Translations under genes and position numbers: made by a program
Origin: Gracilimonas sediminicola
GTDB lineage: Bacteria; Bacteroidota; Rhodothermia; Balneolales; Balneolaceae
Length of the DNA stretch: 64,000 nucleotides
Direction: 5' to 3'
Assembly: GCF_024320785.1 (NCBI RefSeq)
Contig: NZ_JANDBC010000002.1
Coordinates: forward strand, 372,001-436,000
Shown here: positions 4,178 through 40,991 of the stretch, piece by piece
Numbering within the stretch: the first letter of the stretch is position 1
Layout of the letters: every line of letters starts with the position of its first letter
The notes under the pieces: generated by a model
What the model was told of the DNA's origin: nothing
Seen by the model: only the letters and a program-made list of their open reading frames with translations
Database searches by the model: none

Positions 4178-4199
4178 CTAGCTTTTAGCTTTTGCTTAA

Positions 4200-4704: not shown

Positions 4705-6777
4705 TTAACTGCTCATCAGCTCTTTAATGTCATCCGGATCGCCTACCATCAGGAATTCATCTTCCTCACTGATTAGGGTATTTCCATGCGGGATGATGAG
4801 TTCACTTCCCCGGTAAATAATGGTGATCAAACTTGACCCCGGTAGGTTTATGTCACGGATTTTTTTACCTGCGAATTCCATGAGCTGCTTGCTTTCATTC
4901 ACTTTCAACTGGATAAAATGACCTTCACTCAGCAAGCACTCCCTGAGTTCGCGTTTGTTACCGGATTGCATCCATCGCTTTTTGAAGCCGGATGACTGAA
5001 CAATTTCAGCCAGATGCCCAACCAAACGGATATCCAATCCTTCCTCTTCTTCAGGGACCAAGAGAATGGCGTACATATACACATTGCCGTCAATTCCTGT
5101 TATTTCAAGATCCAGCGATTGCTTAATTCGGAAAACAACCAATTCAGGAGCTGAAACATTAGCCATCGCATGATGACTGCAAATTACCCCGCTGCTCAAT
5201 TTATTGAAGCGATGCTTGTAGTTTTCAGTTAGCTCATTCAACAGCATCTTTTTTTCAACCTTCAGCCGGCCAGACAGAATTTCAGAGGCTTCTCTTAACA
5301 ATTCATCCACTTTCGTGTTATCCGAATCCACATCTACAATAATGCTTCGGGCAATAGTTTCTTTGTATGAAAGATGTTCCCCGGTGTTTTTCTCGTTGAG
5401 GATGTTCAAAAGCTCGAGCTCTAGGTCATCGTACCTTTTCTTACCCAATCGCTCATGAACGTGAAATATGGCTCCTCTCCGGTTTATCTGGCCTTTTGTA
5501 TAGTAGATGTACCAAGCCACGCACATCACAACAATAAAACCGGTAAGAGATACCGCGAGGATTCCCATTTCTGCTACCAACCAAACAGAGATTAACATCC
5601 CGGCAATTTGAACCCACGGATATAGCGGTGATCTGAAACCCGGCCGGTAACTGTTGATGTTACTTTCGCGCATTACGATAACCGCTAAACACATAAACCC
5701 AAACAGCAGAAGTTGAAACGCACTGGCAAGCTTGGCCACCGATTCCACATCAAAAATCAAAAGAATCAGGATCATACAAATTACCGTTACGATAATGGCA
5801 TAGTAAGGAGTGCCCTGCTTACCGATATCGCTGAACTTTGAGCTCATAAGCTTATCTCTCGACATAGCGAAAGGATACCGTGAGGCAGACATAATACCGG
5901 CATTTCCGGTTGAGGCAAAGGCAGCAACAGCCGCAACCACGATGAGCAGCATGCCACCTGAACCGGGTAACCAGTTCATGAATTTTGCTCCTGCATCGGC
6001 TACTGGTGTCAGGCTTGAATAGAACTCTTCTGCCGTCAAAACCTGCTGCATTACATACACTCCGGCAACATAGATCAGAGAGGCGGTTGTGAGTGAAAGA
6101 ATCATCCCGAGAGGAATATTCCGGTCCGGATTCTTCACTTCTTCAGCCACACTGGTAACCTTGGTAAGCCCGGCATAAGACACAAAAACCAGTCCTATGG
6201 TGGATATAAAACCATGCAGGCTATTGCTAAAGAATCCATCTTCAGAATCCGATATGCTGATATCCAACCCGGCAGCTGAGACTCCCTGTATGATGAAAAG
6301 CCCCATAATTATTACCAATACTGTGACCAATATTCTCTGAAGAAGTGTTGTTTCTTTCGCTCCAAAAATATTCAGGAACCCAAATATCAGAGTCAGTATA
6401 AGGGCGAGCATCGTAAATGAAACATCTACAAAAAGTGCCAGGTACGCTCCCATACCAATAAGAGCAAAGGAGCTTTTAAACATCAGGGCAACCCACGATC
6501 CTAACCCGCCAATGGTACCTACCATCGGACCCAGGCTTCGGTCCAGAAAGTAATAGGTTCCCCCCGATTTTGGCATAGCCGTAGACAATTCTGCAACGCT
6601 GAGCATGGCGGGTATAATCAGAATTCCGGAAGCCAGGTAAGCCAAATACACCGACTCCCCTGTTTGGGCTGCCGCAATTCCCGGAAGCAAGAAGAACCCG
6701 GAGCTGAACATAGCACCGGTACAGATGGCAAATACATCGTAGAGGCCAAGTTGTTTTTTAAGTTTATTATCAGACAT
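4705..6777 (-). CDS. APC-family amino acid permease fused to EIIA-like and RCK_C-like domains
   Basis: I start at ATG 6777, since AGGTG lies 7 bases upstream; a GTG at 6786 is an alternative. The 690-residue protein has about twelve hydrophobic segments in residues 10-425, opening with the APC signature region (DVFAICTGAMFSSGFFLLPG), so it is an inner-membrane amino acid or polyamine transporter. A long cytoplasmic extension follows. Residues of about 445-610 resemble a PTS EIIA type 2 domain, with a His pair in VICSHHAMAN at the expected active-site place. Residues of about 620-690 (INLPGSSLITIIYRG, GNTLISEEDEFLMVG) match the RCK_C/TrkA_C fold, which binds small ligands in ion channels. Ligand gating of transport is an inference. 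Usual APC permeases are about 450-500 residues. Confidence 0.8.
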   Translation of the reverse strand: MSDNKLKKQLGLYDVFAICTGAMFSSGFFLLPGIAAAQTGESVYLAYLASGILIIPAMLSVAELSTAMPKSGGTYYFLDRSLGPMVGTIGGLGSWVALMFKSSFALIGMGAYLALFVDVSFTMLALILTLIFGFLNIFGAKETTLLQRILVTVLVIIMGLFIIQGVSAAGLDISISDSEDGFFSNSLHGFISTIGLVFVSYAGLTKVTSVAEEVKNPDRNIPLGMILSLTTASLIYVAGVYVMQQVLTAEEFYSSLTPVADAGAKFMNWLPGSGGMLLIVVAAVAAFASTGNAGIMSASRYPFAMSRDKLMSSKFSDIGKQGTPYYAIIVTVICMILILLIFDVESVAKLASAFQLLLFGFMCLAVIVMRESNINSYRPGFRSPLYPWVQIAGMLISVWLVAEMGILAVSLTGFIVVMCVAWYIYYTKGQINRRGAIFHVHERLGKKRYDDLELELLNILNEKNTGEHLSYKETIARSIIVDVDSDNTKVDELLREASEILSGRLKVEKKMLLNELTENYKHRFNKLSSGVICSHHAMANVSAPELVVFRIKQSLDLEITGIDGNVYMYAILLVPEEEEGLDIRLVGHLAEIVQSSGFKKRWMQSGNKRELRECLLSEGHFIQLKVNESKQLMEFAGKKIRDINLPGSSLITIIYRGSELIIPHGNTLISEEDEFLMVGDPDDIKELMSS

Positions 6778-8847: not shown

Positions 8848-9168
8848 ATGAAAAAATTGTATTACTCGATGGGAGAAGTCAGTAAGCTAACCGGACTTGA
8901 GCCCCACGTATTACGAAACTGGGAAAAGACTTACACGGAGCTGAGCCCCAAGAAAAACAGCGCCGGAAACAGAGTGTATAAAGAGCAGGAACTTGCCCTC
9001 ATCTTCAAGATCAAAGAACTACTACACGACAAAAAATACAGTTCCGAAGGTGTGCAGGAAATTTTACGTGAAGGCGAAATCAAAGACGCCCCTCCCCTCA
9101 GTGCCGAAGCTCGTAAAGACCTGAATGAGATCAAGGTTTTTTTGAATGACTTACTGGAGAGATTGTAA
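8848..9168 (+). CDS. MerR-family transcriptional regulator
   Basis: The 106-residue protein begins with the MerR winged-helix DNA-binding domain: YYSMGEVSKLTGLEPHVLRNWE contains helix-turn-helix and the start of the wing, and SAGNRVYKEQELALIFKIKELL completes it. The Arg-x-Tyr and LRxWE features are typical. Only a short C-terminal segment follows, which is too small for a ligand-binding domain, as in the compact MerR proteins common in Bacteroidota. Its target is unknown. The divergent GT2 gene is a possible one because the starts are 80 bases apart. Downstream lies the heptamer array. Confidence 0.9.
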   Translation: MKKLYYSMGEVSKLTGLEPHVLRNWEKTYTELSPKKNSAGNRVYKEQELALIFKIKELLHDKKYSSEGVQEILREGEIKDAPPLSAEARKDLNEIKVFLNDLLERL

Positions 9169-9183
9169 TAGGGGTTAAATTTC

Positions 9184-9296
9184 AAGTTCCAAATTCCAAA
9201 TTCCAAGTCCCATTTCGTTAATCGTTAATCGTTAATCGTTGGTCACTGGTCACTGGTCATTGATCACTGATCACTGATCACTGATCACTGATCACA
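9184..9296. repeat. Heptanucleotide tandem repeat array of four motif families
   Basis: Sixteen 7-bp units occur in blocks: AAGTTCC/AAATTCC/AAATTCC/AAGTCCC (9184-9211), GTTAATC three times (9217-9237), GGTCACT/GGTCACT/GGTCATT (9241-9261), and GATCACT four times plus GATCACA (9262-9296). The last block enters the 3' end of the heme A synthase gene and encodes its final residues. The motifs change between blocks while the period stays at seven. Confidence 0.9.
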
Positions 9297-10216
9297 ACTT
9301 CCCCTCTTCTAAGTACCAAAATCATCAGAAACTGAGTACATACCATTACGGCTACGCCTACTAAGTGCAGAACCTGCAGCACTCTGGGCATTGCCAGGTA
9401 GTTGAGACCTATACCAATCAATACCTGCAGAAATACCAACACAACATTCAGGTCACCAAGCTTTTTAACCCATCCTTCCGCATTGTGTTTCTTCATCAGG
9501 TAAAACAGCCACCCTGCAGCCACTACCAGTAACCAGGAGAAACTTCGGTGAATGGGGAATACGCCTTCCATATTTTCAAGCCAGGTTCCACGGGGAGGAA
9601 CAACCGGTGCATTTTTTATTACATCGATGGCCTCACGAACCTGAGTTCCCAGTACCAGCTGGATCATAGTAAGCCCGAATAATACCCACAATGTCCAAAG
9701 TAATTTCTTTCGGAAGCCTTCCTCAATCCTGATCTTAAACAGGTCGCTGGTTGCCTCAAAGGTTGCATAAAGGAGCACCGTCACAATTACCATAGCTACA
9801 AGCATATGCGCGGTTATCAAGCCTTCATGCAGTCCGGTTCTAACTACTACTCCACCAAGCCATCCCTGGAATAAAACGAGCACAAAAGCGGCAATGGAAC
9901 TGTAAAAAACTGTTGGCTTTTCCTTTCTGTACCTGATGGAGAGTAAAAAGGTAGCCGTAATCAGCAAGCCAATCACAACTCCCACTAACCGGTTCACATA
10001 CTCAATCCAGGTCTTCCACACATTAAATTGGGATTCGTCAAAACCCGCCGGAAGGTCGGCTAAACTTGTGGGAGGTATCCACATACCAAAGCATTTAGGC
10101 CAGTCGGGACAACCCAATCCTGCCCCGGCAGCTCGCACAAGTCCACCCACTAAAATTAAGAATAAAGTAGCCGCAACGGTTGTTATGGCTGTTTTCTGAA
10201 AAGCGTTCAATTTCAT
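9278..10216 (-). CDS. ctaA: Heme A synthase (COX15/CtaA family)
   Basis: This inner-membrane enzyme oxidises the C8 methyl of heme O to the formyl of heme A for aa3-type oxidases. The 312 residues hold about eight membrane helices. His137, His223 and His284 lie in the expected helix positions (LITAHM, FPIHRSFSW, LQVLHLVG). C36 and C42 (GCPDWPKC) match the cysteine pair at the first periplasmic loop. In the first four-helix half the usual ExxHR motif reads E72-YV-N75-R, so the heme-ligand His is Asn. The last residues are encoded by the heptamer array, and the stop lies within it. The divergent ctaB gene at 10298 supplies the substrate. Confidence 0.9.
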   Translation of the reverse strand: MKLNAFQKTAITTVAATLFLILVGGLVRAAGAGLGCPDWPKCFGMWIPPTSLADLPAGFDESQFNVWKTWIEYVNRLVGVVIGLLITATFLLSIRYRKEKPTVFYSSIAAFVLVLFQGWLGGVVVRTGLHEGLITAHMLVAMVIVTVLLYATFEATSDLFKIRIEEGFRKKLLWTLWVLFGLTMIQLVLGTQVREAIDVIKNAPVVPPRGTWLENMEGVFPIHRSFSWLLVVAAGWLFYLMKKHNAEGWVKKLGDLNVVLVFLQVLIGIGLNYLAMPRVLQVLHLVGVAVMVCTQFLMILVLRRGEVVISDQ

Positions 10217-13731: not shown

Positions 13732-14087
13732 ATGGAACACGGATAACACCGATGTTACGGATGATCACTGTTTGAAGAATACAGAAAACACACTTTCATT
13801 CCGTGATTATCTGCTCAATCCCTTCATCCGCGTTCTATCCTCCTCCAACATCGCATGGAACACGGATAATACTGATGGTACGGATGATCACTGGTTGAAG
13901 AATACAGAAAACACACTTTCATTCCGCGATTATCTGCTCAATCCCTTCATCTGTGTTCTATCCTCCTCCAGCATCGCATGGAACACTGATAATACTGATG
14001 GTACGGATGGTCGCTTTTTCATGAATAACAAGAAAACAAACCTTTAATCAGCGGACATCAGCTAAATCCGCCTCATCCGTGTTCCAT
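13732..14087. repeat. 356-bp element with 13-bp terminal inverted repeats and 123-bp tandem units
   Basis: The left end ATGGAACACGGAT at 13732-13744 is an exact inverted copy of the right end at 14075-14087. Inside, a 123-bp unit beginning TGGAACAC starts at 13733, 13856 and 13979; the first two are near-identical full copies and the third breaks off after about 40 bases. Since 123 is a multiple of three, one plus-strand frame (13772-14047) stays open with a 41-residue repeat. The right end abuts the RDD gene: its last base is the first base of that gene's complemented stop codon. No transposase is encoded. Confidence 0.85.
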
Positions 14088-14833
14088 CACCCCTTTCCGT
14101 GAATGGCGTTGTAATCTTTAATGACGGTCTGCAGGAATTCATCTCCGCTCATTCCATGGTCTTCTACCCCTAAACGGTCTTCTATTTTCTTGCGGGTTTT
14201 TTGAAGCATAAGGAACCAGTTGTCATAGTCGTAATGAGAACGGGAGTCGAGCACTTCCCGGATAATGCGAATATCGTTATCTGTGAGTTCGGCAACCTGT
14301 TTAAACCGGGGCTCATAAGCATCCGCCACTTTCGAATAGAGCGTGTTATCCAGGTTCACTTTTTTTCGTTCTTTGATTACGCAGGTCTTACCCAGTATAT
14401 CCCCGATGCGCTGCCCCTTCCCATTCAGCAAAATAGCCACAAAAGCCAGAACGCCACTTGTCATTGAGATTTCCACAAGCCTGAACATCCAACGAACCAG
14501 ATACCCCCCAAGATTGGCACGCGTACCGTCAATTTTAACCACCCGGATTCCCACAATCTTTTTTCCCAGACTGTAGCCATTGGAAACCACTTCTGATACC
14601 AGATGATAGAGTATCAGCGGAAGAACGAGTACGATGTAAAGCACCCAAACGGAATCCTCAAAGCTTCCGGTTGAGGAGGGACCGATATCATTCATATACC
14701 CCCAGATCCAAATCACGACCAGGTAGTATATCCCGATAAAAAAGGCGTCCAGGAAAAAGGCCAGGATGCGCTCACCCACACCGGCCGGCTCATAACTGAG
14801 TTTTACATGTTGCGAGGTTTCAATACCTACCAT
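14087..14833 (-). CDS. RDD-family membrane protein
   Basis: The 248-residue protein has the RDD signature: E-R-ILAFFLD at about 22-30 gives the Arg and first Asp of the first helix, and IGDILGKTCV after the fourth helix gives the last Asp. Hydrophobic helices cover residues 24-50, 65-90 and 115-140. A soluble C-terminal part of about 90 residues (NDIRIIREVLDSR) follows the RDD domain. RDD proteins are small inner-membrane proteins, some proposed to move ions or compatible solutes, but function here is unknown. It is divergent from the SpoIIM gene by 117 bases and belongs to the MoxR/DUF58 cluster that follows. Confidence 0.88.
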   Translation of the reverse strand: MVGIETSQHVKLSYEPAGVGERILAFFLDAFFIGIYYLVVIWIWGYMNDIGPSSTGSFEDSVWVLYIVLVLPLILYHLVSEVVSNGYSLGKKIVGIRVVKIDGTRANLGGYLVRWMFRLVEISMTSGVLAFVAILLNGKGQRIGDILGKTCVIKERKKVNLDNTLYSKVADAYEPRFKQVAELTDNDIRIIREVLDSRSHYDYDNWFLMLQKTRKKIEDRLGVEDHGMSGDEFLQTVIKDYNAIHGKG

Positions 14834-40858: not shown

Positions 40859-40991
40859 TTTTCATATCATATTAGTGATGAGAAGTGAGTAGTGAGCAAT
40901 CAATGCAAATACTCAATACTAATCTTTCCAATATGAATCTTTTCCTTACCCCGGACGTACCTTGCTAAACCTTTGAACCAAAAATCATCCC

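Follow-up and report, generated by a model that had tools for sequence, protein, structure and literature searches.

The over-representation of heptameric repeats in bacteria was the subject of a 2007 study, reportedly by Mrazek and colleagues. As told in PMC4692102, heptameric simple sequence repeats were found to be over-represented in bacteria, and the length of DNA held by the polymerase was proposed as the cause of the unit length of seven. For the cyanobacterial STRR three Calothrix heptanucleotides are given (PMC4692102). Direct repeats of TAACTGA were described in Beggiatoaceae, cyanobacteria and five Bacteroidetes (PMC4679880). In the P6b element of the Nostoc tRNA-Leu intron a whole repeat class was replaced several times independently (PMC3488679, PMC4476775). 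Both the heptamer excess and the wholesale replacement of heptamer hairpins, the latter in the Nostoc intron, are already published. A demonstrated cause of the bacterial heptamer excess, which as told in PMC4692102 has been on record since 2007, was not found in the literature searched. Nor did we find, in the open-licence literature searched, any description of Balneolota arrays with period 7 or of hairpins between genes with heptamer arms that are replaced together. The array described here, at the 3' end of ctaA in a 64-kb stretch of Gracilimonas sediminicola DNA (the window, i.e. the whole stretch that was analysed), is a true heptameric repeat and belongs to a known kind; for its lineage no such report was found.

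By direct count, 88 of 106 positions between 9184 and 9296 are identical at lag 7; the period-7 array is real. About sixteen 7-bp units with changing motifs had been proposed from the letters of the window, and this was borne out, including a junction unit between the first two blocks (Table 1). The ladder TCGTTAA > TCGTTGG > TCACTGG > TCATTGA > TCACTGA forms a single unbroken period-7 segment (9215-9295, score 53). When periods 2-30 were scanned over the 64-kb window, a run score of 12 was reached only by period 7 and its multiples 14, 21 and 28, all at the ctaA array. TRF reported period-7 arrays at 9177-9206, 9215-9240 and 9243-9295, and a weak, short one at 4179-4197. With head-to-tail 7-bp units beyond chance the array classifies as a heptameric simple sequence repeat. 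It is not a G-quadruplex heptamer, which carries a run of at least three G in each unit: GGG or CCC is not present in all copies of any unit, and CCC appears only in the junction unit. None of the units TTCCAAA, TCGTTAA, TCACTGG and TCACTGA equals TAACTGA, from which TCACTGA differs by one base. TTGGTCA, which we take to be one of the STRR words, resembles the TGGTCAC units of the array. Complementary heptamer arms as in the P6b hairpin are absent. An exact inverted repeat of at least 8 bases was not found in the array, and its folding is about that of shuffled sequences (z = -0.55 as DNA, 54 of 200 shuffles being as good, and z = -1.35 as RNA, 21 of 200). No terminator-like site was detected at the gap (9000-9450) and no Rfam match between 8000 and 11000. 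Elsewhere in the window, at 13732-14088, a 123-bp unit is repeated about 2.9 times, and in the alignment with G007, the sister genome, the two differ in length by 28 bp and by 20 bp within this repeat.

Table 1. The heptamer array between the merR-like gene and ctaA, its blocks and the flanking genes (positions in the window).
Feature	Position	Strand	Description	Sister genome G007
merR-like regulator	8848-9168	+	PF13411; convergent with ctaA	
Whole array	9180-9295		TTTCAAG, TTCCAAA x2, TTCCAAG, TCCCATT, TCGTTAA x3, TCGTTGG, TCACTGG x2, TCATTGA, TCACTGA x4, TCAC	
First heptamer block	9180-9207		TTTCAAG, TTCCAAA x2, TTCCAAG	
Junction unit	9208-9214		TCCCATT, dissimilar to both neighbours	
TCGTTAA block	9215-9242		TCGTTAA x3, TCGTTGG	one TCGTTAA
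TCACTGG block	9243-9263		TCACTGG x2, TCATTGA	three TCACTGG
TCACTGA block	9264-9295		TCACTGA x4, TCAC	one TCACTGA
ctaA, haem A synthase (COX15-CtaA)	9278-10216	-	PF02628, E 1.9e-46; 3' end enters the array	98% identical ctaA

The last block of the array had also been thought to supply the end of the ctaA reading frame, its final codons and stop. This is indeed so: on the minus strand VISDQ, the last five residues, and the stop codon are encoded within the TCACTGA block (9278-9295). The conserved domain of the protein stops at residue 293. Because the array-coded residues 308-312 are located beyond it, the position of the stop codon inside the array is presumably incidental. The nearest ctaA proteins are from Balneolaceae, with 81% identity in a Gracilimonas MAG and 71% in a Balneola MAG.

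A match to ctaA was obtained in eight same-genus genomes, counting that of the window, and every one of them has the convergent merR-ctaA pair; none was obtained in G001 and G009, which were excluded from the comparison of the gap. In the gap of G007 neither the blocks nor their order differ, but the unit counts do, by net four units (compare TCGTTAA, TCACTGG and TCACTGA in Table 1). Thus, the comparison of unit numbers that the sequence-only reading had proposed for this locus revealed a difference between close relatives, as is characteristic of a variable-number repeat. No array was present in the gap of five same-genus genomes (G005, G004, G008, G006 and G003), in which it measures 11-64 bp. 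The gap of G002 is 149 bp long and ends on either side in a heptamer-like array of another word; by eye the two arrays are partly mutual inverted copies, with exact inverted matches of just 9-10 bp. In a more distant Balneolaceae genome (L028; L100 has the same sequence) (GCTGAAA)n is located at both stop codons in inverted orientation. Judged from these sequences, arrays with unrelated words were probably born three times in the ctaA gap. Because the array is absent in five same-genus genomes and present in two close ones, with differing counts and conserved block order, the comparison shows that its units were gained and lost whole.

We then examined periodicity in a sample of 2.74 Mb, consisting of 740 kb from the window's genome (3.57 Mb, six contigs) and 400 kb from each of five relatives, with genes called by simple ORF callers. 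In the 740 kb of the window's genome 20 period-7 arrays were detected, whereas two order-2 Markov controls had 0 and 1; each of the other periods from 2 to 13 had at most five. The heptamer tendency beyond the ctaA locus, which the sequence-only reading had suspected, was therefore present in this sample as a clear excess of period 7 over the other short periods. The noncoding arrays of all six genomes numbered 1, 0, 2, 2 and 1 for periods 2 to 6, 68 for period 7, 23 for period 8, 1, 3, 2, 5 and 0 for periods 9 to 13 and 18 for period 14, the last count including some diverged heptamers; as the window's genome and G007 are sisters, some arrays were counted twice. Exact noncoding runs of at least 14 gave 29 for period 7, 8 for period 8, 2 for period 5, 1 each for periods 11 and 12, and none for periods 6, 9, 10 and 13. 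With the same code no noncoding array of periods 2-15, nor any array of period 7, was found in 250 kb of E. coli K-12. At 26 Bacteroidota loci (490 kb; L037 and L051, from other phyla, were omitted) noncoding period 7 again led, with 7 arrays and at most 1 for any other period, although three of the seven (L042, L046 and L050) seem to represent a single array seen in related genomes. The underlying process strongly favours period 7, and period 8 comes second. The rarer period-8 arrays are found e.g. in L120 (9120-9260), L122 (6877-6899), L138 (19317-19401) and L144 (3226-3392), often of the AGTGATNA kind; they use several words and by eye include some inverted pairs. In one array of G042 (L199, 15828-15904) a stretch of period 8 is flanked by period 7 on both sides.

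Like heptameric simple sequence repeats in general, the arrays are mostly intergenic. With the simple gene caller 68 of the 78 period-7 arrays were noncoding and the other ten were mostly in called coding sequence. A second gene caller placed 55 in gaps, 5 at the edges of stretches and 2 inside genes. Arrays occupied 14 of 235 convergent and 7 of 311 divergent gaps (p = 0.04; the five edge arrays and the two inside called genes are left out of these counts). Such a bias is expected if promoter regions do not tolerate arrays. Because about 6% of the sampled convergent gaps carry an array, three births at the ctaA gap do not point to a strong site preference.

The 78 period-7 arrays represent 56 distinct canonical units. 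In our samples, then, the word is free and the length is fixed at seven, less often at eight. Genus dialects exist, e.g. (TTGGTCA)3 in 4 of 8 same-genus genomes. Prevalence in the phylum was tested with single words and is indicative only: exact (TTGGTCA)3 was found in 6 and the reversed word in 10 of 395 genomes, (TTAACGA)3 and its reversal in 4 each of 395, and a hexamer 21-mer and its reverse in 0 of 390. A preferred phylum-wide vocabulary was rejected since words and their reversals were about equally widespread. Self-palindromic units were likewise rejected (a 4-base palindrome in 29% compared with 38% expected). A 140-bp ladder in G007 (L139, 19186-19325) leads from ACGACCA via ATGACCA and ATAACGA to TTAACGA with unbroken period 7. 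On the other strand it contains TCGTTAA-type and TTGGTCA-type words, like the array at ctaA.

How fast do such sites change? Between the window's genome and G007, 6/6 distinct array sites that could be mapped by both flanks differed; six further arrays on the window side and six on the G007 side were unmappable by both flanks and are outside this count. The difference was four units in the ctaA array, a 7-bp unit at 223580 and an 8-bp unit at 210877 (both are window-plus-C2 string positions). The remaining sites differed in the arm length of an octamer hairpin, by a 67-bp loss in G007 and by other words at 40874. When all indels between the sister genomes were considered, length 7 did not stand out as a peak of its own, because the majority are of 1-6 bases or are located in poorly aligned stretches. 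Among the clean tandem indels of 3-60 bases, length 7 occurred twice and lengths 3, 4, 8, 10, 14 and 21 once each. In C2 of the window's genome, at about 640.5 kb (string position 268543), a perfect 20-bp hairpin is present; at this place G007 lacks 45 bp and shows a single arm. From the alignment this looks like hairpin formation by template switching or like hairpin loss.

Period seven had also been claimed for 40874-40901. The 14 matches at 21 lag-7 positions were confirmed; taken alone they are weak and within chance, as five Markov shuffles of the window contained 1-15 equally good stretch positions and the real window at lag 9 contained 26. The same gap in G007 carries strong arrays of other heptamers, with about eleven units of CAGTTGA and nearly five of the CTGCTCA type. 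Within the genus, G002 has an inverted pair of octamer arrays in this gap and G008 a short array-like piece; nothing was evident by eye in G005, G003, G001, G009, G004 and G006.

Slipped-strand mispairing in replication is typically recognised by changes of whole units with conserved order, and those at the ctaA gap fit slippage. On balance we consider the ctaA array to be a young, near-neutral heptameric tandem repeat. Such arrays would arise by slippage in replication, with a step set by the machinery, and at times fold-back copying would take part as well. Units would be added or removed by slipped re-pairing of the nascent strand. A point change in one unit, later spread by slippage, would create a ladder of words. 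The fixed step calls for a cause outside of the sequence, and the replication machinery rather than the sequence may set it. Possibly about seven paired bases are needed to hold and extend a slipped nascent end. Two-copy seeds of less than seven could then not grow, and longer seeds would be about fourfold rarer per added base (match chance 0.26). This threshold is our inference in the spirit of the earlier proposal of a polymerase-held segment (PMC4692102). Together with seed scarcity it predicts that periods 7-10 stand at about 68:18:5:1 and that longer periods are almost lacking; the counts were 68:23:1:3. The counts of 2 and 5 at periods 11 and 12 exceed the prediction, i.e. the fit to the spectrum is rough. 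E. coli possesses a replication machinery and yet had no arrays in its 250 kb, which argues against a step length common to all bacteria alike.

Several repair functions were considered in this context. Loss of mismatch repair and loss of exonuclease VII were rejected because MutS and XseA were each present in 6/6 genomes. A repair limit at loops of 3-4 bases (PMC4060949) would let 5 and 6 pass. Exonuclease I was absent in 6/6 genomes; its loss was rejected as well because absence is usual, with a match only in E. coli among 14 control genomes. SbcD did not exceed the curated cut-off in any of 34 genomes of the own family, seven of which had weak matches, and exceeded it in 6 of 57 genomes, all of one genus of another family. 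The lack of canonical SbcD in the own family might allow hairpins to persist.

A second step, fold-back copying, is suggested by inverted pairs of arrays. Within 400 bp, 17 of the 78 period-7 arrays had an inverted partner compared with 2 of 78 after swapping flanks; with both pair members counted, the 17 arrays are 12 sites and p = 0.0003 is too good. Direct partners were not in excess (4 compared with 7). An exact inverted repeat of at least 12 was present in 24 of 59 gaps with period-7 or period-8 arrays and in 14 of 177 length-matched gaps (p = 4e-8; three controls per array gap, chosen from the ten nearest in length, repeats being possible). Complementary heptamer arms are present in several arrays and at the intergenic site L121 (about 5525-5604 of the locus; C2 near 561.5 kb), which was examined in ten same-genus genomes (comparison loci include L235 and L237-L240). 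Here a hairpin exists in six of nine resolved genomes, with z of -6.9 in G000, -2.3 in G005, -5.4 in G006, -4.2 in G004, -6.5 in G003 and -8.0 in G008. It is absent in G009 and G001, 67 bp are lost in G007, and in G002 the right flank was not found. The arm words belong to three families, GAATTTTGAAT in three genomes, TGTTAAGTGT in two and TTGATGA in one, and both arms change together. An insertion in the window's genome was rejected because related sequence exists in G005 and G003, which makes a deletion in G007 likelier; the missing 67 bp would be well explained by deletion between AATTA copies. One may go further and consider fold-back copying at intergenic hairpins as the main engine: the nascent 3' end would snap back, copy one arm onto the other and slip by about seven, thus building inverted array pairs and rewriting both arms, and plain arrays such as that at ctaA would be one-armed or decayed outcomes. 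The inverted partners, the inverted repeats in array gaps, the persistence of the L121 hairpin through three word families and the 20-bp hairpin at 640.5 kb all agree with it. Nevertheless we regard it as rather unlikely, because the ctaA array neither contains an exact inverted repeat of at least 8 bases nor folds better than shuffles, because 61 of 78 arrays lack an inverted partner at that score, and because the 12 sites include none from G006, G015 or G042.

The L121 hairpin, kept with changed words and favourable folding in six genomes, could also be read as a selected RNA element, i.e. arrays and hairpins would be retained because they terminate transcription or stabilise 3' ends, and the covariation of the arms would reflect selection on pairing. 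The slight enrichment between convergent genes is in line with such a role. The hairpin is, however, lost or absent in G007, G009 and G001, the ctaA gap has neither a terminator-like site nor an Rfam match, its array is absent in five same-genus genomes, and selection on pairing would not require period seven; this explanation is improbable. We also considered that arrays spread between loci as units, via a small mobile element or gene conversion. Non-periodic 16-mers are indeed common to unlinked array regions of one genome in 11 pairs (against 0, 0, 0, 0, 0, 2, 0, 1, 0 and 0 in ten control sets), weak dispersed matches of the L121 array occur elsewhere in G000, G002, G003, G004, G006 and G007, and the (TTGGTCA)3 dialect points the same way. 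Yet an unsystematic look disclosed no element ends or transposase, the 67-bp absence in G007 is well accounted for by the deletion, and across the phylum a reversed word is at least as widespread as the original. Spreading of this kind is thus quite improbable. Hardly credible is a role as stop signals in all frames behind genes, in spite of the ctaA stop within the array: 73% of the units have a stop on either strand compared with 65% after shuffling, a marginal excess (p = 0.046), and stops on both strands show none (18% compared with 20%). Returning to slippage with a machine-set step, plain slippage alone fails to explain the association with inverted repeats, the arms replaced in step and the phrases common to unlinked arrays. 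The common mechanism of slippage or repeat copying suggested by the sequence-only reading is therefore supported in part: whole-unit gain and loss fits slippage, whereas inverted pairs, co-changing arms and shared phrases fit additional copying.

What would this mean? Tentatively, and with considerable doubt, one might envisage a by-process of replication with a fixed step of seven, rarely eight, whatever the sequence. It would stutter tandem words and rewrite both arms of intergenic hairpins with new seven-letter words, so that positions outlast sequences, and it would underlie the STRR, the Nostoc trnL P6b and the arrays reported here. If this is true, one could read a constant of the replication machinery in these lineages from the step length. 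The lineage is a clean case, with a sharp spectrum, a free word, whole-unit changes between sisters and hairpin words replaced in both arms, and the question 'why seven' thereby becomes testable. At the same time it is a warning that conserved hairpins with covarying arms may arise from mutation and not only from RNA selection. The clean period spectrum and the connection to hairpins merit a dedicated study.

Compared with known systems, the cyanobacterial STRR are tandem heptamers as well; they belong to another phylum and the likeness is one in kind, by description. The P6b heptamers of the Nostoc tRNA-Leu intron are described as pairing in both arms as a hairpin with variable copy number (PMC3488679, PMC4476775). 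P6b is one intron site in cyanobacteria, whereas we deal with intergenic sites in Balneolaceae, and the ctaA array forms no hairpin. TAACTGA repeats are intergenic heptamer arrays like ours, and for some Bacteroidetes mixed heptamer assemblages are reported that a close relative lacks at the same gap, as observed here (PMC4679880). In Beggiatoaceae, according to the same source, a single word is favoured and is often located just before start codons; here many words are used. The GGGAATC and GGGGA(C/T)T arrays of Xanthomonas and Nostoc share with ours period seven, a mostly intergenic location, a lower frequency between divergent genes and length variation among close relatives, as described in PMC4692102. 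They are G-rich and can form quadruplexes (PMC4692102), whereas the ctaA array is not G-rich. For the heptameric repeats reported in 2007 PMC4692102 relates that many bacterial genomes have an excess of seven as unit length between genes, as found here. What distinguishes the present case is a genus of Balneolaceae in which seven is far on top and eight is second, with many words and a link to hairpins.
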